Part shown: piece by piece, positions 2,797 through 61,271 of the stretch
Position numbering within the stretch: the stretch's first letter is position 1
Layout of the letters: each line of letters opens with the position of its first letter
Source of the DNA: an uncultured Treponema sp.
GTDB lineage: Bacteria; Spirochaetota; Spirochaetia; Treponematales; Treponemataceae
DNA: 64,000 bases
NCBI GenBank assembly: GCA_946615905.1
Contig: CAMOIE010000012.1
Span: 1 to 64,000, forward strand
Direction of reading: 5' to 3'
Made by a program: the position numbers and the translations under genes
The notes under the pieces: model-generated
Told to the model about the DNA's origin: nothing
Databases searched by the model: none
What the model saw: only the letters and a program-made list of their open reading frames with translations

Positions 2797-4011
2797 ATGA
2801 TTATCAAACCGATGATTCGTTCAAACATCTGTATCAACTCACACCCGATTGGATGTGCAAAAGACACAGAAAACCAGATCCAGTACGTGATTTCGCAGAA
2901 GGCAAAACGTGGAGTTAAATCTGCTAAAGAAGGCGGATATGCCCCAAAGACTGTCCTCGTCCTCGGATGCTCAACAGGCTACGGACTTGCTTCTCGCATT
3001 TCAGCTGCCTTTGAATACGGAGCTGACACAATCGGCGTTTCATTTGAGAAAGAAGGACGCGAGACAAAGGGCGGAACCCCTGGTTGGTACAACAACATGA
3101 CTTTTGACCGCGAGGCAAAAAAAGCCGGTCTCAAGACAGTCACATTCAACATGGACGCCTTTTCTGACGAGTGCCGCCAGACTGTAATCGACGAAGTTAA
3201 AAAGTGGGGGGCAAAATTCGACCTTATCGTATACTCACTCGCTTCTCCGGTTCGCACAGACCCCGACACAAAGGTTATGTACAAGTCTGTAATCAAACCT
3301 GTCGGACAGGCTTATGGCGGACTTTCACTCGACATGATGACTGGCGTTCTTTCTCAGATGGAGGCTCAGCCTGCACAGGGCGATGATGTCCCCAACACTG
3401 TGAAAGTAATGGGCGGTGAAGACTGGGAAAGATGGATTAAACAGCTCATGGAGGCTGGAGTTCTTGCTGACGGCTGCCGCACACTCGCATACTCATACAT
3501 CGGACCGAAGCTGAGCCACGCAATCTACCGCGACGGAACAATCGGTGCTGCAAAGAAGGACTTGGAAGCCCGCGCCCACAACATCTCAAAATCTTTGGAA
3601 AAAATCGGCGGAGCCGCATACGTCTCTGAGAACAAGGGTCTGATTACACGGTCTTCTTCAGTTATCCCGATTATCTGCCTCTACCTTGGATGCTTGTTCA
3701 AGGTCATGAAGGAGAAAGGAACTCACGAGGGCTGCATCGAGCAGATGGAGCGCCTTTTTGCCGAGCGTCTTTACAGAGCTGACAAAAAAGTTCCGACTGA
3801 CGAAGAGGGAAGAATCCGCATTGACGACTGGGAGCTTGACCCCGATACTCAGGCCAAGGTTGACGAACTTATGAGCGGAATTACTCAGGAAAATGTCGCA
3901 GAACGCTGTGACATCGCTGGAATCCGCCATGACTTCCTTATGATTAACGGCTTTGACGTGCCAGGCGTTGACTATGAGAAAGAAGTCACTGACATGAGCA
4001 AAATTGACTAA
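2797..4011 (+). CDS. fabV: trans-2-enoyl-CoA/ACP reductase, FabV/TER family
   Basis: The 404-residue NADH-dependent enzyme reduces trans-2-enoyl thioesters to saturated acyl thioesters. It is the FabV class of enoyl-ACP reductase, also called TER, with T. denticola TER as a well-studied member. The Rossmann segment VLVLGCSTGYGLASR begins near residue 53. The catalytic signature of the family, Tyr-X8-Lys, is present as Tyr244...Lys253, with the preceding AYSYIG segment. Length is typical. AAGGAG sits six bases before ATG 2797. It follows an acyl-CoA ligase across repeat copy A and ends in a strong bidirectional terminator (4052-4090). It could serve fatty-acid elongation or crotonyl-CoA reduction in butyrate-type fermentation; the sequence alone does not separate these. 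Confidence 0.97.
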   Translation: MIIKPMIRSNICINSHPIGCAKDTENQIQYVISQKAKRGVKSAKEGGYAPKTVLVLGCSTGYGLASRISAAFEYGADTIGVSFEKEGRETKGGTPGWYNNMTFDREAKKAGLKTVTFNMDAFSDECRQTVIDEVKKWGAKFDLIVYSLASPVRTDPDTKVMYKSVIKPVGQAYGGLSLDMMTGVLSQMEAQPAQGDDVPNTVKVMGGEDWERWIKQLMEAGVLADGCRTLAYSYIGPKLSHAIYRDGTIGAAKKDLEARAHNISKSLEKIGGAAYVSENKGLITRSSSVIPIICLYLGCLFKVMKEKGTHEGCIEQMERLFAERLYRADKKVPTDEEGRIRIDDWELDPDTQAKVDELMSGITQENVAERCDIAGIRHDFLMINGFDVPGVDYEKEVTDMSKID

Positions 4012-51632: not shown

Positions 51633-52937
51633 TTAGTCGAACTGGGTCTGCCAAACTTTTATCCTGTTTTCAAGGCTTTCTACCTTTTGGACGGAGGTTG
51701 AAGTTGAAAGGGCCAGATATGGCAGGATGACCCTTTCATGGATACTGTACCAACGGATGGGAAAAGCTGATGGTGCCTTTATTGATGAAGCCTGCGGCAT
51801 ATTCCCTAAAAGCGTTCTGTTGTAAATCGGCAGTACATGCTCGTTTACTGCAATCAGACTTGAAAAACCTGATGCAATTCCGAATGTCGAGGTTCCCAAC
51901 TGAAGCTTGTGAACCCGCTCGATAATCTCTTTTTGGTTTTCCTCGTTTAAAAGCCAGACTATGAACTGTTTTGCTCCATCCTTGTTTTTTGACGAATGGT
52001 AAAGCCCTATTGTGACGATATCGTCTTCTGCTGGAATTTCGTTGTTCTGCGAAATCCAGCGGAAATCGATTCCGCTAAGGATCCCTGCGGAGAGGTTGAA
52101 CAAGTCTCGAGAATTTTGAAAGGCGTAAAGACACCGCAATGCTGTGACCTGCTTGTTTGGCGGCGTATATAGAAATTTGAAGGCGAAGTCCTGCTCAAGT
52201 TCGGTTGATGTATTTTTTTCTGTCGTCCAATCCCTGATGTATTTTGCCGTTGCGTCCAAAGCCTGCTGGTTCCATGTGAACTGGTTGCTTTTTTCTGAAA
52301 TTGAAAAACCATTCAGCTTTGCGACTGTATACAAAAAGTCTGGATTCCAAGAGGGGCCGAATCCCATGTTTTTATAAAATCCAGAGGAGTCAGTCACGTT
52401 GTAGCGTCCGGCTGTATTTTTGATTTCGTTCAGTGTTACCAAATGCTTTTTTGGGACATATTCATCGTTTTTCGGCGAGAAAATTATTGCTGGCAAGTTA
52501 AATGAGACAGGAAGAAGGTAGTGGCGACCGTTTGAAAGCCCGTATTCCAAAAGAGATGGGTAGAGGCTGGCTGGGTCAAGGTCCTTTTTGTTGAAAACTG
52601 AATCGAGCGGGGCAAAATGTTTGCGGATTTTTGAATTTTTTAAGTAGGCGCCCGCTATTAAATCCGGTGGCGTTTCGTCCTTTGCGGGCGGAAGTTCCTC
52701 TGCCGGATGTTTTTTATAAGTGACTATGACTTTTGCATCCTTACTCTGAACGTTAAAAAGTTCGGCGTAAAGGGCGAATTCCTTTGAGTCAGTCCAAATG
52801 ACTACCGGCTGTGTATTTTTTGCACAGCCTGAAATAATCATGAGGAGGAAAAGAACTGCTGCGGCAAAAATCTTATTCTGCCAAATCTTCTGCTGTCGAA
52901 TAAATTGCATCGTAGACTGTTTCGATTTTGTCCTCAT
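51633..52937 (-). CDS. extracellular solute-binding lipoprotein, solitary
   Basis: This protein of about 434 residues has an N-terminal signal ending MIISGC, so it is a predicted lipoprotein. The body has the family-1 solute-binding pattern (PVVIWTDSKEFALYAELFNVQSKDAKVIVTY; PPDLIAGAYL; YLLPVSFNLPAIIFSPKNDE; GAKQFIVWLLNEENQKEII), typical of sugar binders. No permease is nearby. The start is uncertain: ATG 52937 or ATG 52910 both overlap the end of the upstream aminotransferase gene (stop at 52873) and neither has a ribosome site, so coupling is likely. Why it is co-transcribed with an aminotransferase is not clear. Confidence 0.75.
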   Translation of the reverse strand: MRTKSKQSTMQFIRQQKIWQNKIFAAAVLFLLMIISGCAKNTQPVVIWTDSKEFALYAELFNVQSKDAKVIVTYKKHPAEELPPAKDETPPDLIAGAYLKNSKIRKHFAPLDSVFNKKDLDPASLYPSLLEYGLSNGRHYLLPVSFNLPAIIFSPKNDEYVPKKHLVTLNEIKNTAGRYNVTDSSGFYKNMGFGPSWNPDFLYTVAKLNGFSISEKSNQFTWNQQALDATAKYIRDWTTEKNTSTELEQDFAFKFLYTPPNKQVTALRCLYAFQNSRDLFNLSAGILSGIDFRWISQNNEIPAEDDIVTIGLYHSSKNKDGAKQFIVWLLNEENQKEIIERVHKLQLGTSTFGIASGFSSLIAVNEHVLPIYNRTLLGNMPQASSIKAPSAFPIRWYSIHERVILPYLALSTSTSVQKVESLENRIKVWQTQFD

Positions 52938-54165
52938 CAACTGAAGAGAAAGCCACGCGGAGTGTCTCGGAATCGATGGAGATTGTGCCGATTCCTTTTT
53001 CCATCAGGATTTTCTGGCGGAGTTCTTCTGCGTCAATTCCCTCAACATGGAAGCTCATGAAGTAGCCGGAATTGAAGGGCATCGCATGCAAATACTTTGA
53101 CTGGTGTGAGTCAACGTATGCACGGACTTTGTGGTAGCGGGCTTCGAGTATGTCGCGGAGGGCTTTTTTCTGGCTCTCAATCTCAGGGTCATCGAATGCT
53201 TTGAGGCAGAGCGACTGGCTGGGAGTTGATGCACATGAGACTGAGGAGCGGATTAAGCCCATCAGCTTTTTGACGAGAGCCTCATACTGTGCCTCGTTCA
53301 TGCCCTTGCAGCCGAAAGTCAAGAATCCGCAGCGGAAGCCCCATACGAAGTCTTCTTTTGTCGGACCGTCGATTTTCACGGCAAGGACGTTTTCGCTCAA
53401 GTTTGCGAATTCCGCGAAAAGTGACTGGGGGTAAATGTCATCTTCGTAATTGAGACCGAAATAAGCGTCATCGTCCCAGATTATGAACTTTGTTCCCTTG
53501 TCCGCGAATTCTTTTACGATTTTTACGATTTCCGCAGCCTCTTTTTTTGTCGGGCTGTAGCCGGAGGGGTTCTGCGGGAAGTTCAGCAGGACTCTTACGG
53601 AACCAGATTTCGCCTCCTCGGCAATCGCTTTTTTGAAGCCCTCAAGGTTGAAGCCCCCGTTTGCGAACATTTCAAACTGATGAAGTTCCGCACCGCGTCT
53701 TGTCTCGACAATCAAAGAGTAGTTGTCCCATGAAGGGTTTGCCACCAAGAGCGGCTTGTCAGAGTCAACGAAAAGGTCTGACAGGTATGAGATTCCTGCG
53801 GTAAGGCCGGGAACGACAACCGGAAGTGAAATTGAAACGCCTTTTAGTCCGGGATTTTTATCGAATATTTTTTCTTTCCAGAGAGCGCGCAAGTTCGGGT
53901 CGCCTGCTGTAGGCTCGTAGGCCACAAGCTCCGCTGCTGTCAGCATGGGAACATGTTTGTGGATTGCTTCCAGACAGACCGGCTTGCCGTCCACACGGGT
54001 GGTTCCGACAGTCGCATTTGCGACTTTTCCGAAGCGTTTGGCTTCGCCGCCCTGTGAGATTATGCCGCGCGGAAAGAAAATTCTTTGTCCCAGTTCAGAA
54101 AAAAGCCCGTCGGCAACAGTTCCAGCGAGCGTCTTGTTCAATTCTTGTGCTAAAGGGTTCAACAT
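52873..54165 (-). CDS. PLP-dependent aminotransferase, class I/II
   Basis: This 430-residue fold-type I aminotransferase has a standard core: PLLVANPSWDNYSLIVETRRGAE (aromatic stacking region), NFPQNPSGYSPTKKEAAEIV (the NP.NPSG signature), IWDDDAYFGLNYED (the Asp and Tyr that hold the cofactor) and KIDGPTKEDFVWGFRCGFLTFG, with the Schiff-base lysine in DGPTKE. It is probably an aromatic or aspartate-type enzyme, but the substrate cannot be fixed. There is no ribosome site; the ATG lies about 8 bases from a TTTAAT element, so it may be leaderless. The 3' end overlaps the next gene. Confidence 0.88.
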   Translation of the reverse strand: MLNPLAQELNKTLAGTVADGLFSELGQRIFFPRGIISQGGEAKRFGKVANATVGTTRVDGKPVCLEAIHKHVPMLTAAELVAYEPTAGDPNLRALWKEKIFDKNPGLKGVSISLPVVVPGLTAGISYLSDLFVDSDKPLLVANPSWDNYSLIVETRRGAELHQFEMFANGGFNLEGFKKAIAEEAKSGSVRVLLNFPQNPSGYSPTKKEAAEIVKIVKEFADKGTKFIIWDDDAYFGLNYEDDIYPQSLFAEFANLSENVLAVKIDGPTKEDFVWGFRCGFLTFGCKGMNEAQYEALVKKLMGLIRSSVSCASTPSQSLCLKAFDDPEIESQKKALRDILEARYHKVRAYVDSHQSKYLHAMPFNSGYFMSFHVEGIDAEELRQKILMEKGIGTISIDSETLRVAFSSVDEDKIETVYDAIYSTAEDLAE

Positions 54166-54283
54166 GATAAATTATTAAACAGCAAAATTACTGCTAATGT
54201 CAATTATATTTATGCACTTTAAATGTTAAAAATTGCATATTTATGCAAATTTTTACTCTAAATTGGCGGCGGAACGGAAAGAT

Positions 54284-55306
54284 ATGGAATTTAATACAAC
54301 TTTTAATGCAGGGGCAAAAATCAGTCAGGCCGACTCCCAGGCTTTTGAGGAATGCGGAAAAGTTCTTGCGGAATGCAGGTCAGAGGCGGCCAGAAGAATC
54401 GCAGGTCAGAAGAATGTTGTTGACGGAATTCTGACGGCCATGCTTGCCGGTGGACACGTCCTGATTGAGGGTGTTCCCGGACTTGCTAAGACTCTTGCAG
54501 CCCGCACCTTTGCTGAGATTTCAGGCCTTGACTTCAAGCGCATTCAGTTTACCCCAGACTTGCTCCCGGCTGACGTTTCGGGAACTTTAATTTACGAGCA
54601 TTTTTCCGGTAAATTCAGCGTGCGAAAAGGACCTGTCTTTACGAACGTCCTTTTGGCTGATGAAATCAACCGTGCGCCCGCGAAAGTCCAGTCGGCCCTG
54701 CTTGAGGCTATGGAAGAAAATCAGGTGACAATCGGCGAGGAAAGCTACAAGCTGCCAGACCCATTCATAGTCCTTGCGACCCAGAACCCGATTGAGCAGG
54801 AAGGAACCTACAATCTTCCAGAGGCCGAGCTTGACCGCTTTTTGCTGAAAATCACCGTTTCCTATCCTACTGCCGAGGACGAGCTTAAAATCGTTTTGTC
54901 AGCTGGAAATGCCGGACAGATTCCCGTCCGCAGGATTTTTTCCGCAGACTTGCTAAAAAAATGCCGCAGCCTTTTGAATCAAGTTGTCTGTCAGGAAAAA
55001 CTTGCCGCCTATATTGTCTCCCTAGTCGGTGCCACAAGACCCGGAAAAGACTCTGCCTCGCTCAAAAGTGACATCTCAAAGTACATTACTTGCGGGGCTT
55101 CTCCCCGTGCAGGAATTGCCCTCCTTCAATGTGCAAGGGCGAACGCCCTTTTTGCCGGACGCTCCTACGTTCTCCCAGAAGACATTCAGACCGCTGCCCT
55201 GCCGGTTTTACGCCACCGCCTGGTTCTTTCCTATGAGGCGGCCGCTGACGGTGTTACTAGCGACGAGCTGATTTCCCGTATTTTGTCGATTTTGCCGCTG
55301 CCGTAA
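54284..55306 (+). CDS. MoxR family AAA+ ATPase
   Basis: This 340-residue ATPase is the usual first gene of Bat-type operons. Motifs are a Walker A variant LIEGVPGLAKT, GTLIYEHFSGKFSVRKGPVF, Walker B VLLADEINRAPAKVQSALLEAMEE, the sensor segment VLATQNPIEQEGTYNLPEAELDRF, and a lid domain near TCGASPRAGIALLQ. MoxR proteins act as chaperone-like partners for VWA-domain proteins, here encoded downstream. The frame is open from TTG 54233, but ATG 54284 starts the conserved part. Only 24 bases separate its stop from the likely start of the DUF58 gene. Confidence 0.92.
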   Translation: MEFNTTFNAGAKISQADSQAFEECGKVLAECRSEAARRIAGQKNVVDGILTAMLAGGHVLIEGVPGLAKTLAARTFAEISGLDFKRIQFTPDLLPADVSGTLIYEHFSGKFSVRKGPVFTNVLLADEINRAPAKVQSALLEAMEENQVTIGEESYKLPDPFIVLATQNPIEQEGTYNLPEAELDRFLLKITVSYPTAEDELKIVLSAGNAGQIPVRRIFSADLLKKCRSLLNQVVCQEKLAAYIVSLVGATRPGKDSASLKSDISKYITCGASPRAGIALLQCARANALFAGRSYVLPEDIQTAALPVLRHRLVLSYEAAADGVTSDELISRILSILPLP

Positions 55307-55330
55307 TTTTTGGGGAAAAACGGTAATTTT

Positions 55331-56236
55331 ATGAAGAATTTTCTGGGCAAAAAAACTTCTCTTCTCGCAAAAAAAGCCGACCTCTTGAGGCTTTCCGCAA
55401 TTTCAATCGCAGAGTCGATGAAAAGTGGAAATTTCAAGTCGCTGTACAGGGGACGGGGAATCGAGTTCGAGGATTTGCGCGCATACTTGCCCGGAGACGC
55501 AATCAATTCAATCGACTGGAACGTTACGGCCCGCATGGGAAGTCCTTTTGTAAAGCAGTACTCCGAAGACCGGGATTTGACCGTGTTTTTTGTTGTTGAC
55601 CGCTCTCTGTCGATGGAATCCGGACCCGAAGCTTCCGCACGGGCTAAGACTGCCGCTGAGACCGCCGCTCTTTTGACTTTGGCCGCCATGCACAATCAGA
55701 GTTCCGTCGGAGGCGTTTTTTTTGACGGGAAAATCCGTTTTTCACTTGCCCCAAAAGCCGGATATGACCAGGCGATGCTTCTCCTTTCAAAAATTGACTC
55801 TGATATGCCCGGAGAAAATTTTTTTGAAAGCCCAGGTTCGGATTTGGCGGGAGCCTTGAAAGTCGCTGGAAGACTTTTAAAACACCGTTCCCTTGTTTTT
55901 GTGATTTCTGACTTCCGCACATCTGGCTGGAAAATTCCGCTCGCATCTTTGGCACAAAAGCATGATTTGGTCGCCGTAAAAATCACCTGCCCATCGGACT
56001 CGGAATTGCCGTCAAATTTGAGCCTGCCTTTTTCTGATTCGGAATCCGGCGCGAGAATGATTCTTCCGACATTCAAGCAGTCATTTAAAATGGCTTGGCG
56101 ACAGGCTGAGCGCAACAGAAGCGAAAACTGGACTTACGAATGTTCCAGGCGGGGCGCGTACACCCTCCAAATTTCAACGGAAGAAGAGCCTGCATTGCGA
56201 CTTGCGAAGTTTTTTGGCACAAGGGGAGCAAAATGA
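55331..56236 (+). CDS. DUF58 domain protein
   Basis: This 301-residue protein has the DUF58 pattern: SGNFKSLYRGRGIEFEDLRAYLPGDAINSIDWNVTARMGSPFVKQYSEDRDLTVFFVVDRSLSM. The last part is a VWA-like metal-binding loop (DRSLS). DUF58 proteins link MoxR ATPases to the membrane VWA proteins of the Bat cluster. The frame is open from TTG 55310; ATG 55331 is preferred although the ribosome site is weak. Its stop overlaps the next start (ATGA). Confidence 0.88.
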   Translation: MKNFLGKKTSLLAKKADLLRLSAISIAESMKSGNFKSLYRGRGIEFEDLRAYLPGDAINSIDWNVTARMGSPFVKQYSEDRDLTVFFVVDRSLSMESGPEASARAKTAAETAALLTLAAMHNQSSVGGVFFDGKIRFSLAPKAGYDQAMLLLSKIDSDMPGENFFESPGSDLAGALKVAGRLLKHRSLVFVISDFRTSGWKIPLASLAQKHDLVAVKITCPSDSELPSNLSLPFSDSESGARMILPTFKQSFKMAWRQAERNRSENWTYECSRRGAYTLQISTEEEPALRLAKFFGTRGAK

Positions 56237-57294
56237 AAAAATCCCTGATTTGGTTGCCGCTGATTTGTCTTTTTGCAAATTTTCTCTCATTTTCCGCAGA
56301 AAATTCCCAGACCGTGATTCCGAAGAACGTTTACACTGGAGACACCGCCCAAGTCCGCGTTTTTTTTGAGTCGTCCGTTGATTTGCTTTCGGATGGTGGG
56401 GTGGGAAATGGTTCCCTTGAATTTTCCACAGACTTGCCGGTCTTTCATACGATTTCTGGTGACTGCCTTGTTACTGGAGCCGGAATTGAGCACAACGGAA
56501 GCTACTGGTCATTTTGGCTGAATTTTATTCCTTGGAAGCCTGGTCAAATTTGCTTTCCGGCATTTGATGTCGCCGACTTGATTCACCGGGAAAAAGGTCA
56601 GGGGGCTTACGGTTCTTCTTTTTTGCTGAATGTCAAACCTGTCGAGATTCTGTCGCTTTCTCAAAAAATGAATGTCTCAGAATTGCGGCCACCGGCTTCG
56701 CCTCTTTTGCTTCCCGGAAGCGTCTGGCTAGTTTCTTTGATTGCCGGAGGAATTTTCATTCTTTTGGCTCTTTCTGTCATTTTGCTTTTAAAATTGCCTT
56801 CTTTCGTCCTGTTTGTCCAAGAGGCTAAAAGCGGAAGAAAAATTAAAAGAGCTGTTAAAAAAGCCAGAAAATCCTTGCGACGCCTGCTTCGGGCTAAAAA
56901 TCTTTCCGACCAGGATTTTGCCGCTGGAATTCAAAATATTTTGCGTGAATTTTTGTCGACCCGATTTTCCAGAACTTTTGACAACCTGCCGACTTCCAGA
57001 CTCGCAGGATTTTTTGAGGAGCTTACTGGCGAGACCCTTTCTGATAGTCAGGAAGAAGAAATTTTTGACTTGGCAGGAATTTTTACCCGCACGGACTACA
57101 TCCGCTATGCCCCGAATTCCGCTGATTCAAAACGCTTTCCCCAAGAAAATTTTGCGGCGGTCTGTCTGCCGGGCGAGCGTGAAAAACTTGCGGAAAAATC
57201 CCGTCTCCTTATTTTTGCCCTCTCAAGGACGGAAAAGAGCGATGAGAAATCCGAAAAATCCGTGAAAAAGGAGGAAGAAAGTGCCGTCGTTTGA
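56233..57294 (+). CDS. Bat-operon membrane protein with signal peptide and cytoplasmic tail
   Basis: The 353-residue protein has a signal peptide (residues 1-22, ending FSFSAE) and an extracytoplasmic beta domain (about 23-165). One membrane helix (about 175-200, LVSLIAGGIFILLALSVILLLKLP) is followed by a basic helical cytoplasmic domain (KKARKSLRRLLRAKNLSDQDFAAGIQNILREFL). That last domain is like the C-terminus of DUF4381/BatD-type proteins. The ORF is open upstream inside the DUF58 gene, but ATG 56233 (ATGA overlap) gives an intact signal peptide. It is placed between DUF58 and batA. The end overlaps the batA start by 14 bases. Confidence 0.75.
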   Translation: MKKSLIWLPLICLFANFLSFSAENSQTVIPKNVYTGDTAQVRVFFESSVDLLSDGGVGNGSLEFSTDLPVFHTISGDCLVTGAGIEHNGSYWSFWLNFIPWKPGQICFPAFDVADLIHREKGQGAYGSSFLLNVKPVEILSLSQKMNVSELRPPASPLLLPGSVWLVSLIAGGIFILLALSVILLLKLPSFVLFVQEAKSGRKIKRAVKKARKSLRRLLRAKNLSDQDFAAGIQNILREFLSTRFSRTFDNLPTSRLAGFFEELTGETLSDSQEEEIFDLAGIFTRTDYIRYAPNSADSKRFPQENFAAVCLPGEREKLAEKSRLLIFALSRTEKSDEKSEKSVKKEEESAVV

Positions 57295-58282
57295 AAATCC
57301 CGCAGCCTTCCTCTTGCTGCTGGCCTTTCCGCTGATTTTTATTCTCCGTACACTGGGATTTTTGGAAAAGCCCTCTTTCAACCTGACTCTTTCTGACTGG
57401 AATGGGCAGACATTTGCCTTTTCCGGCGGATTTTTTAAAGTCGTCTCCCTTATCGGAAGATTTTTTCTCTCGCTTTCATTCGTCTTTATAATTCTGGCGG
57501 CCGCTGACCCTGTGATTCACCGCGACGAAAAAGTCTACACTTCAAAAGGTGCGGAAATTCTTTTCGTCCTCGACATCAGTCCTTCTATGGCCGCAAAGGA
57601 CACCGCCAACATGACCAGACTTGACGCTGCCCGAACTGGAATCAAGACTTTGCTTGCAGAGAACAAGGGGGCTTCCTTCGGACTTGTCGCAATGGCAAGC
57701 GAGGCAGCTTCTGTTGTTCCGCCGACAAGTGATTCCGATGCTTTCTTGAAAAGACTTGATTCTCTTGTAATCGGCTCCCTTGGCGAAGGCTCTGCAATCG
57801 GAACGGGACTTTCCTCCGCAGTCTACCACTTGTCGTCATCTTCCGCGCCAAAAAAATGCATAATTTTGATTACGGACGGAGAGAATAACGCGGGGGCTGT
57901 CCATCCGCAGACTGCCGCCAGCCTTGCCTACGAAAAGGGCATCTCTCTTTTTGTCTGGGGAATCGGCTCTTCCGGTTCTGCCCCGATTGAATACGTCGAC
58001 CCGAAATCCGGCAAAGTCCGCTCCGGCTACTATGACTCTGAATTCGACTCCCGCCCCTTGGAAGAATTGGCGTTAAAGTCAGGGGGAAAATACTTTGACG
58101 TAGCCACGACCGAGGCTCTTTCCGCCGCAATCAGCGAAGTTTCAAGAAGTCAGGCTTCAAATCAGTCATTTTTTATACGGCCCGCAGGAACTTCCCTTTA
58201 TGAGCGATTTTTGCTGGTCGCTGTGATTTTATTTATTTTTTCAGAATTTTTGCTCAGAGTCGTAAACAGGGAGGTCTTTTAA
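57281..58282 (+). CDS. BatA-like VWA-domain membrane protein
   Basis: This 333-residue protein has two N-terminal membrane helices (about residues 8-26 and 53-75). The VWA domain (about 90-290) has an intact metal site: DISPS in LFVLDISPSM, the threonine region EGSAIGTGLS, and ITDGENN. A C-terminal membrane helix (FLLVAVILFIFSEFLLRVV) closes it. This is the BatA arrangement. The start is GTG 57281 with AAGGAGGA upstream. It overlaps the preceding gene by 14 bases and batB by 1 (TAATG). Confidence 0.93.
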   Translation: MPSFENPAAFLLLLAFPLIFILRTLGFLEKPSFNLTLSDWNGQTFAFSGGFFKVVSLIGRFFLSLSFVFIILAAADPVIHRDEKVYTSKGAEILFVLDISPSMAAKDTANMTRLDAARTGIKTLLAENKGASFGLVAMASEAASVVPPTSDSDAFLKRLDSLVIGSLGEGSAIGTGLSSAVYHLSSSSAPKKCIILITDGENNAGAVHPQTAASLAYEKGISLFVWGIGSSGSAPIEYVDPKSGKVRSGYYDSEFDSRPLEELALKSGGKYFDVATTEALSAAISEVSRSQASNQSFFIRPAGTSLYERFLLVAVILFIFSEFLLRVVNREVF

Positions 58283-59919
58283 TGTCTTATTTGAATTTGA
58301 TTGAACGTCCCTATGCGCTATTTTTCCTTCTTTTGCTTATTCCTTCCTTTATTTTGACTTTTGCCCGCTACAGGCAGCTTGGACTTTTTATATCGGCGCA
58401 AGATGAATCGAAAGGTGGGCGAAAGGCCAGAAAATCATTTTGGCTGACTTATATTTTCAGGACTTTGGCATGGATTTTTCTAGTTCTTTCTTTCGCAGGA
58501 ATTTCTATCGGCGAAAAAACTGTTCCCGTTCAAAAATCTTCAGATGCCGTCGCCCTTGTCTTTGACATTTCTTACTCGATGTCTGCCCGTGACTCAATCG
58601 GAGGACTTTCCCGTCTTAAGGCTGAGCAGGCTTATGCCAGTCGTCTTGTTGACTTGATGGAAGGCGTTTCCGTTTCGATTGTTTTTGCGAAAGGGTCAGG
58701 ATTTTTGGCCGTCCCGCTTACGGAAGACCGCATGACTTTGAATAATTCAATTGCCCGTCTTTCTCCCGACCTGATGACTTCTGCTGGTTCTTCAATCGGT
58801 GGCGGAATAAAATGTGCTTTGGCTTCTTTTCCTGAGGCATCTTCTCAGGCTGAACGAATCTGGGTTTTCACCGATGGGGACGAAACTGATTCTTCTCTTG
58901 CCGAGGCTTTGGAAGCCGCAGCCCGTTACTCAATCCCAGTGACTTTAATCGGTTTTGGCGGCGCAACTCCTGTTGAAATTACGGCAGGGGACGGCAAGAC
59001 TAAAGTTTCAACCCGTCTTCAGGCTGAAAATTTAATCGATGCGGCTGCCCGTGCGAACAAAAAAAAGCTGATTTCTATTAACGGCTCTTTTTCTTCGGAT
59101 GACTTTGTTTCCTATATTGCGGCCGACTCCGAGTCTTCCGCCTACACTTTGCTAAAGCAGCTTAAAAAAAATCAGCAGGAAGGAATGACTATCGCCTATG
59201 AAACAAAGCCTGTTCCCCGCCACACGCTTTTTGCAATTTTGGCGGCGGCCTGTGCCCTTGTCTCGGTTTTTCTCTGTGAATTCTCAACATCAAACGCAAG
59301 ATTCAGAAAAATCGCCAGAAAGTCTGCCGGCCTTCTTGTTTTCGCAGCGATTCTCTCTTCCTGCTCAAATAAAAATACGGAAAAAATGGAAGTTTTAGCA
59401 GGTTCTTGGGCGTTCAGTCAGGGAAAAAATCAGGAGGCGACCGCGAATTTCTTGAGGGCTTACAATTCTTCCCTTGGGCGCAGTGACTTGGATTTTCAGG
59501 CCTTTGCCTCTTTCGATTTGGCGGCAACTTACATAGCTCAGGAAGAATTCGACGCGGCCTTGAGCCGACTTGAAAAAGTCCCTGGCAATTCGCCTGGCAG
59601 ACTTTTGAGTGCGACCCATTACAACCGAGGCGTGATTTTTGCCCGCCGGGGAAAGTATTCTCTTGCGGCTGAGGAATTCAAAAAAGCGGTTTTGGCAGAC
59701 AGCTCGAATGTTGACGCTCGGCTGAACCTTGAATTTTGCCTCCGCCAGCAGGAAGAGGTTCCGGCAAAAGAAGGAGAGCGGGAAATGTCCGCCGTCAGCG
59801 AGGAAAAGGACACTAAATCCCTTGAGGAAGCCGTATTCAATTTGATAAAAGAAGAGGAAGGAAAGCAATGGCAAAAACTGGATTCTGGAAAACGGGACGA
59901 AGCCGTTATCGATTACTGA
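58282..59919 (+). CDS. BatB-like VWA protein fused to a lipoprotein-type TPR domain
   Basis: The 545-residue protein starts as BatB: two membrane helices (about 11-28 and 53-75), then a VWA domain with metal site DISYS (VFDISYSMS) and FTDGDET. A membrane helix follows (LFAILAAACALVSVFLC). After it comes SAGLLVFAAILSSCSNKN, which has exactly the shape of a lipoprotein signal with lipobox, now in the interior. The rest is TPR-like (FDLAATYIAQEEFDAALSRLEKVPG, THYNRGVIFARRGKYSLAAEEFKKAVLAD), as in BatC. This looks like a batB-batC fusion that kept the BatC signal as a membrane segment. Overlaps on both sides show a tight operon. Confidence 0.9.
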   Translation: MSYLNLIERPYALFFLLLLIPSFILTFARYRQLGLFISAQDESKGGRKARKSFWLTYIFRTLAWIFLVLSFAGISIGEKTVPVQKSSDAVALVFDISYSMSARDSIGGLSRLKAEQAYASRLVDLMEGVSVSIVFAKGSGFLAVPLTEDRMTLNNSIARLSPDLMTSAGSSIGGGIKCALASFPEASSQAERIWVFTDGDETDSSLAEALEAAARYSIPVTLIGFGGATPVEITAGDGKTKVSTRLQAENLIDAAARANKKKLISINGSFSSDDFVSYIAADSESSAYTLLKQLKKNQQEGMTIAYETKPVPRHTLFAILAAACALVSVFLCEFSTSNARFRKIARKSAGLLVFAAILSSCSNKNTEKMEVLAGSWAFSQGKNQEATANFLRAYNSSLGRSDLDFQAFASFDLAATYIAQEEFDAALSRLEKVPGNSPGRLLSATHYNRGVIFARRGKYSLAAEEFKKAVLADSSNVDARLNLEFCLRQQEEVPAKEGEREMSAVSEEKDTKSLEEAVFNLIKEEEGKQWQKLDSGKRDEAVIDY

Positions 59920-61271
59920 TTTGCTCATTTATTTTGCTTTTATCTGCAAATTTTGGAGCCGTCGCAGGAGTCTCAAAGGAAGTCGCCGCTGGACTTTTGA
60001 TAAAGGCTGACTCTGACTATTTTTTCACAGGCATGGAGAATTCCTGCACTCTGGAAATTCCGGGGCTTTCCCCGTCAGAAATCGGGCAGACGGAGCTTCC
60101 TATTTTTCCTGCGGGAACCCAGTTGATTTCTTTAAAAAAAGAGGAATTTTTACAGGATGGTTCCAGTAAGACTGGAACCCGCTTTCATTTTTGGTTCTCT
60201 TTTACCGGCAGCGGAGAATTTGCCCCTGACCCCTTCACTGTGAAAATCGGCTGGAAGACTTATAAAATTCCTTTTGAAAAAGTCACCGTCTTTGAAAATC
60301 CCTCGACAATCATGCCGCAGATGAAGATTGAATTTCCGGGGAAGGACGCTGAGCAAAAGAACGGTGTGAAAGTTTTTCACGCTGATGTCGGGGAAAAAAT
60401 CCGCCTCAACGTGAATCTCTGCTATTTTGTCCAGATTATGAATTTTAAGTGGACGATTCCGGCTGACTCGATTTTCAAGCAGACAGGACGTTTTTCTGCC
60501 TTGGATTTGACTTCTCCCCGCTCGTCTGAATTTTCCCCGGAAGCAGTCCCTGTCGCGACTTTTTTGTGGCAGCCCCTTGTCAAAGGTGAATATTCATCGC
60601 CCGCCTTTGAGCTGACCGCCACGGCCTACAACGGCTCCAGAATTAAAGTTCCACTTCCTCTTTTTAAAGTCATCGTCTCTGAGCGAAAACTCGTTGCAAC
60701 GCTTTCTCAAGAAAAATCTGGCGAGTCACTTTTGAATTCAGCCTTTACGGAAATTCAGGAGACTCTTCCAAGTCAAAATGAAAAAGCGGAGCTTTCACTC
60801 GACGATTGCAAAAAACTTGTCCAGCTGAGGGCAGATGAACGCCACGCCTTGCCATTTTCGTCCGCCCGCCAGCTTCGCCGCCAAAAGGAAGCCTACTTTG
60901 GAATTGAAAGCTCTGCAAACGAGGCTCAGATTTTTCCCTGTTTCCTTTTTGCACTTTTGGCATTTATATTTTTGCTTGTCGCCCTGATTTTCTTGTTTTT
61001 CAAGAAATACCGCCGTGCCGTGACATCTTTCTTTTTGACTTTGGCGGCCTTTGCCGGTTTTTTAGTCTTTTTTTACAAGGCTTCCGCTGATTTTGCCCTT
61101 TGCTACGGCGGAAAAATTTCTCCGGTTCCAGAGGAAGAGTCCTCCGTGTTCAGGAATCTTGCCTCAGGGGAGCGCGTGAAAATTTTGGAAAGGGCTGGAA
61201 ACTGGGTTTACGTTTCTGCGGCTGGCGAGCATGGCTGGGTTTTAAGCGAAAATATTTTTGAGATTAAGTGA
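59868..61271 (+). CDS. BatD/BatE-like membrane protein with C-terminal SH3 domain
   Basis: This 467-residue protein has a signal peptide (about residues 15-35) and a large extracytoplasmic beta-rich part like BatD (GLLIKADSDYFFTGMENSCTLEIPGLSPSEIG...). Two membrane helices (about 360-380 and 385-410) follow. A bacterial SH3-type domain sits at the end (SSVFRNLASGERVKILERAGNWVYVSAAGEHGWVLSENIFEI), a feature usually seen in BatE. GAGGAAGGA lies upstream of ATG 59868, 52 bases inside batB. It is the last Bat gene. Confidence 0.82.
   Translation: MAKTGFWKTGRSRYRLLICSFILLLSANFGAVAGVSKEVAAGLLIKADSDYFFTGMENSCTLEIPGLSPSEIGQTELPIFPAGTQLISLKKEEFLQDGSSKTGTRFHFWFSFTGSGEFAPDPFTVKIGWKTYKIPFEKVTVFENPSTIMPQMKIEFPGKDAEQKNGVKVFHADVGEKIRLNVNLCYFVQIMNFKWTIPADSIFKQTGRFSALDLTSPRSSEFSPEAVPVATFLWQPLVKGEYSSPAFELTATAYNGSRIKVPLPLFKVIVSERKLVATLSQEKSGESLLNSAFTEIQETLPSQNEKAELSLDDCKKLVQLRADERHALPFSSARQLRRQKEAYFGIESSANEAQIFPCFLFALLAFIFLLVALIFLFFKKYRRAVTSFFLTLAAFAGFLVFFYKASADFALCYGGKISPVPEEESSVFRNLASGERVKILERAGNWVYVSAAGEHGWVLSENIFEIK

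Follow-up and report, generated by a model that had tools for sequence, protein, structure and literature searches.

An invariant lipobox inside the fused BatB-BatC proteins of Treponema and its relatives suggests processing of one precursor into a membrane protein and a lipoprotein

Fusion of bat genes has been described before in spirochaetes. In a study from 2012 (PMC3557215), batB and batC of Leptospira biflexa were reported to form one gene, whereas pathogenic leptospires had them as two; bat fusions were reported for Borrelia and Spirochaeta thermophila as well. The L. biflexa product was described as a single BatB bearing a TPR domain. The locus analyzed here is similar in that the same two genes are joined within a spirochaete bat operon but, unlike our reading of the Treponema protein, the available parts of that paper make no mention of an internal signal or of processing. 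In a homologous VWA protein of Borrelia, BB0173, experiments have established three helices, with the VWA domain in the periplasm (PMC5700661). By this topology BatB ends on the cytoplasmic side, which is also where a signal must have its n-region, and a batC signal could therefore be joined to it without a change in topology.

Bacterial lipoproteins, the substrates of Lgt and LspA, share with the Treponema protein an n-region, an h-region of about 15 residues, an invariant Cys, a small residue at -1 and a large hydrophobic residue at -3. However, their signal is N-terminal, whereas that of BatB-BatC is internal and lies behind three membrane helices. To our knowledge all known lipoprotein signals are N-terminal, and we know of no demonstration of Lgt and LspA acting on a signal behind three membrane helices. 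A polytopic membrane protein and an exported protein do arise from one gene, by a cut at an internal signal, in FbcH (the cytochrome b/c1 precursor) of Bradyrhizobium, but there the cut is made by signal peptidase I, no lipid is attached and the proteins are others. The MYXO-CTERM/myxosortase system resembles the present case in having an invariant Cys beside a membrane helix, away from the N-terminus, with proposed lipidation and then cleavage, but differs in that the tag is C-terminal, the topology is inverted, a lipobox is absent and a CPBP protease takes the place of LspA (PMC11980579). A limited literature search, covering few subscription journals and thus weak as evidence of absence, found no published internal lipobox or internal signal peptidase II (SPase II) site. 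The batB-batC fusion is already known; its strictly kept internal lipobox, the repeated evolution of this arrangement and the implied polyprotein processing by SPase II are, as far as we found, undescribed.

The window, by which we mean the whole stretch of 64,000 nucleotides analyzed, comes from a draft genome of approximately 2.96 Mb that encodes both lgt and lspA. Nearest matches among named records were almost all Treponema, including T. berlinense, T. saccharophilum, T. socranskii and T. porcinum. The genes of the bat operon in the window are:

54233..57294, + strand: block of operon genes 5' of batA (moxR, DUF58, membrane protein)
54233..55306, + strand: moxR AAA+ ATPase, 5' operon gene
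55310..56236, + strand: DUF58 protein, 5' operon gene
56140..57294, + strand: membrane protein, 5' operon gene
57281..58282, + strand: batA (VWA protein, 333 aa), directly 5' of the batB-batC fusion
58282..59919, + strand: batB-batC fusion gene (intact ORF, 545 aa, ATG start)
59868..61271, + strand: batD-like protein with an SH3 domain at its C-terminus, 3' of the fusion gene

The operon order is thus moxR-DUF58-(membrane protein)-batA-batBC-batD-like. The ATG of the fusion gene overlaps the batA stop codon (TAATG) and is preceded by a Shine-Dalgarno (SD) sequence, GGAGG, at 58270-58274, while the batD-like gene starts in a different frame within the last 52 nt of batBC (59868-59919), an overlap that suggests translational coupling. 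The moxR gene is listed from a TTG, and an in-frame ATG 17 codons downstream (MEFNTTF...) may be the true start. Further upstream, on the minus strand (51633-52940), a TTG-start gene overlaps an aminotransferase-like gene; its product has an ordinary N-terminal lipoprotein signal (LMIISGCAKN) and resembles a solute-binding protein.

Analysis of the 545-residue fusion protein gave the following layout:

58309..58365, + strand: TM helix 1 of the BatB part, aa 10-28, out to in (hydrophobicity; helix 10-40 in the model)
58453..58509, + strand: TM helix 2 of the BatB part, aa 58-76, after a basic cytoplasmic loop (hydrophobicity and model)
58549..58977, + strand: VWA domain, aa 90-232, predicted periplasmic (Pfam, structure matches, topology of the homologue BB0173)
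59221..59277, + strand: TM helix 3 of the BatB part, aa 314-332, out to in (hydrophobicity and model)
59278..59322, + strand: basic cytoplasmic loop, aa 333-347, EFSTSNARFRKIARK, serving as n-region of the internal signal
59323..59361, + strand: hydrophobic h-region of 13 residues, aa 348-360, SAGLLVFAAILSS
59353..59364, + strand: internal lipobox LSSC, aa 358-361, with predicted lipidation by Lgt and cut by LspA at S360/C361
59368..59781, + strand: TPR domain of BatC, aa 363-500, predicted periplasmic lipoprotein moiety

The features that mark a BatB protein are present, namely a VWA domain with MIDAS, two N-terminal and one C-terminal membrane helices, and the moxR/DUF58/batA operon. Pfam VWA_2 matched residues 90-199 (3.5e-11), and the MIDAS residues D95, S97, S99 and D198 were invariant in 103 fused proteins. 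The solved structure closest to the VWA part is BatB of Bacteroides thetaiotaomicron, 3ibs (sequence profile 1.1e-33, fold 5.6e-13). This structure and the VWA protein of B. fragilis (4jdu) share the VWA fold and were the top sequence and fold matches, but each represents the solved domain only, with the TPR part absent. The protein missed the cut-off of the NCBIfam model VWA_BatB_Lepto (E 1.2e-8, 34.5 bits against 350), a Leptospira-specific 'exception' model, so that the failed cut-off says only that this is not the Leptospira protein. For the BatC part, a TPR domain is encoded adjoining batB, with a Pfam TPR match at residues 370-477 and a weak match to NCBIfam TPR_BatC_Lepto (E 1.1e-7) that falls under the Leptospira-specific cut-off.

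The first-pass annotation had read the order of elements as VWA domain, membrane helix, lipobox-type signal and TPR domain. This order was confirmed by the intact ORF, the Pfam and 3ibs matches and a Cys column occupied in 129/129 fused proteins. The signal, SAGLLVFAAILSSCSNKN (residues 348-365), follows TM helix 3 and the basic loop, and the codon of Cys361 lies at nt 59362-59364. It shows a lipobox with Cys, a small residue at -1, a hydrophobic residue at -3, a basic cytoplasmic n-region and a short h-region running up to the lipobox. It is, however, placed at residues 348-361 of 545 and not at the N-terminus, so the fusion protein is not classed as an ordinary lipoprotein. In an AlphaFold model of the protein (mean pLDDT 84.6) the helix stops at residue 358, confidence falls to the lowest values of the model (pLDDT <50) at 357-362, and the TPR fold begins at 363. 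This drop between two confidently modeled domains would fit a cleavable junction, though it is no proof of one.

Relatives were gathered by contig search, by whole-genome searches at the level of genus, family and phylum, and from retrieved DNA, and were selected by similarity over the whole protein and not by the cysteine. A locus was called fused if the BatB and BatC profiles matched one open frame with no intervening stop. The first set held 103 fused proteins with a median pairwise identity of 39%; in L018 and L153 the lipobox Cys was assigned by hand, the automatic pick being a later Cys. A widened set from more genera held 156 fused loci, corresponding to 129 non-redundant proteins (<90% identity) of the same taxonomic order. 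The column of Cys361 was Cys in 103/103 and, after widening, 129/129 proteins (156 loci). Conservation of this residue, the lack of which the first-pass annotation had named among the findings that would refute its reading, was therefore complete. Cys361 is one of nine invariant columns in the 103 proteins, alongside the MIDAS residues, while the four other cysteines of the window protein are unconserved (kept in at most 23/103). At -1, Ser (86) and Gly (41) accounted for 127 of the 129 proteins, the others having Ala (1) and Asn (1). At -3, F/L/V/M/I, mainly Phe or Leu, was found in 125/129; one fused family member has Glu. A PROSITE PS00013-like pattern matched at the lipobox in 92/103 proteins and at only 16 of 697 other cysteines, which, together with the shared Cys column, indicates that the lipobox is no chance motif.

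Site rates, expressed relative to the mean, set the lipobox apart from its surroundings. The Cys evolves at 0.064 (rank 11 of 527) and the -1 residue at 0.215, while columns of the h-region range from about 1.6 to 3.0; the hydrophobic stretch before the Cys is among the fastest-evolving parts of the protein, with a pairwise identity of only 15%. Of the 129 proteins, 72 encode this Cys by TGT and 57 by TGC, and at least 25 synonymous switches between the two occurred on a tree with a length of 65 substitutions per site, on which the Cys was never lost. The median length of the hydrophobic run before the Cys is 15 in fused proteins, as in split BatC (15), against 18 for TM helix 3. The loop has a median charge of +2, and by a crude count 33/103 loops lack net positive charge. 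The lipobox, beyond a mere hydrophobic segment, is under strong purifying selection, and the pattern, as read from the alignment, is that of selection for a working lipobox, unlike that of an ordinary transmembrane helix. The earlier proposal that the signal was kept as an inner membrane segment is supported, and the data reach further in that the lipobox itself is selected. A cut by SPase II at this site, which the first-pass annotation had raised only as a condition, is strongly suggested by these data.

Split batB and batC genes, which the first-pass annotation had suggested looking for in related genomes, were found in the same family (L117-L121, L205-L207, L210-L216, L219-L220) and also in sister families. 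In split genomes batC starts with its own N-terminal lipoprotein signal (L117, L119-L121, L205, L078, L087 and others), mostly from a clear Met. On a tree built from the BatB and BatC domains, with the junction excluded, five changes between split and fused states were needed, all forced by well-supported branches; given split outgroups, these are read as five fusions. They comprise the main Treponemataceae clade, which includes the window; L203 among split g32 relatives; L076/L080; L071/L110; and L085. The lipobox was retained in all five. The count is approximate, as the tree was a quick one with SH-aLRT support only and several rows of unusual composition. Taken together, the split pairs, the N-terminal signal on batC and the repeated fusion uphold the earlier claim that batB was fused to a separate batC lipoprotein gene.

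An apparent split copy within the same genus, L069 (G028), was discarded, as no start codon opens its batC frame and an A7/A8 run coincides with the break. At that site (reverse strand, approximately 3350-3480) A8 and A7 runs, CAAAAAAAC among them, lie where the frame of batB overlaps that of batC in a different phase, and the break looks like an assembly error or a frameshift, possibly a programmed one. A genome of 1.1 Mb (G090, genus g33) gave no bat match except a weak TPR match. This agrees with T. pallidum, for which the lack of bat genes has been published.

In at least 13 relatives (L021, L022, L025-L032, L089, L091, L092) BatA, BatB and BatC form one protein of about 826-870 aa. These relatives form a subclade of the genus, and a triple fusion in L085 is independent of them. 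The triple fusions have lost the first helix of BatB, a loss that the parity requires if both VWA domains are to lie on the same side of the membrane and that serves as an independent check of the topology, and have retained the internal lipobox.

In families of the phylum that lie outside the class of the window, fused BatB-BatC proteins (L098-L100, L102-L109, L111) lack the lipobox Cys, so a lipobox is not required for fusion of BatB to BatC. Many of their hydrophobic stretches end in small-residue motifs (GYAS-D, FAS-S, AFA-A), and the resemblance to internal signal peptidase I sites is suggestive at the level of sequence. L134, a split relative of this group, starts with a signal peptidase I-like signal. 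It would fit these observations, though they are only suggestive, if each lineage had kept whichever signal its batC possessed.

We infer lipidation, cleavage and a role in the Bat envelope complex for the Treponema protein, in the following manner. One precursor would bear a functional lipoprotein signal peptide in the middle of its chain. The BatB part would insert by three helices, with the VWA domain in the periplasm and the C-terminus in the cytoplasm, and the basic loop and short hydrophobic stretch would do the work of n- and h-region just as in the signal peptide of ancestral batC, presenting LSSC at the periplasmic face. Lgt would add diacylglycerol to Cys361, and LspA would then cut before this residue. 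Two products would result: a BatB membrane protein in which the old signal peptide stays on as a fourth segment in the membrane and, made 1:1 with it, BatC as a free TPR protein held by its lipid anchor. We consider it probable that Lgt and LspA process the internal signal in the cell, so that BatC is freed as a lipoprotein while BatB stays in the membrane.

Lipidation of Cys361 by Lgt with rare or no cutting by LspA, which would leave the fusion intact and give the TPR part an additional, lipid anchor where it begins, accounts equally well for the invariant Cys and asks less of LspA. We regard it as unlikely, since the restriction of -1 to Ser or Gly (127/129) and a hydrophobic length like that of free signals are constraints of a signal peptide, and a lipid anchor next to an existing helix would be redundant. 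Sequence does not separate lipidation with cleavage from lipidation without it, but the match in signal-peptide length, like the restriction at -1, speaks for cleavage. An ordinary fusion, in which the former signal has simply become the fourth transmembrane helix of a protein that functions at full length, would be in keeping with the distant-class proteins without the cysteine and with the treatment of L. biflexa BatB as one TPR-bearing protein in the available parts of the earlier paper (PMC3557215). It leaves unexplained why the Cys is invariant and the -1 residue small within a helix that evolves at 1.6-3.0 times the mean rate, and why the lipobox was retained in all five independent fusions, and we hold it to be quite improbable.

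Invariance by itself would also be compatible with a cysteine retained for a disulfide or a metal site and not for lipidation. However, the fusion protein has no second conserved Cys, BatA, the BatD-like protein and the 56140 protein have no invariant Cys (57% at the highest), and the -1/-3 pattern is that of a lipobox; for want of a conserved partner in any of these proteins the disulfide role was dropped, and we give this explanation very little credence. An internal start could also yield BatC alone, with its signal peptide in the usual N-terminal place, which would make the fused frame incidental, and an in-frame ATG, GTG or TTG does occur 14-45 codons upstream in 80/103 fused genes. Yet this fraction equals that of the control (0.78 vs 0.76), starts with an SD-like sequence are rarer than in the control (3/103; 0.03 vs 0.07) with no ATG among them, ATG is depleted (0.28 vs 0.49), and the window gene offers only a TTG, 41 codons upstream, without an SD. 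Start-codon and SD counts at or under control thus contradict an internal batC start, which we rate as the least probable of the explanations considered.

We further think it reasonably likely that these proteins represent a class of polyproteins in which SPase II, after Lgt, cuts an internal signal behind a polytopic domain, yielding a membrane protein and an equal amount of a lipoprotein, a class with about five origins within one order that predictors confined to the N-terminus would miss. If processing by Lgt and LspA is true, these enzymes need no N-terminal signal and a lipobox behind several membrane helices can be processed, SPase II would join the proteases that split bacterial polyproteins, and catalogues of lipoproteins built with N-terminal predictors would lack members. 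BatC would, in addition, be fixed as a lipid-anchored periplasmic partner of BatB in a 1:1 ratio, providing a handle on the poorly understood Bat complex.
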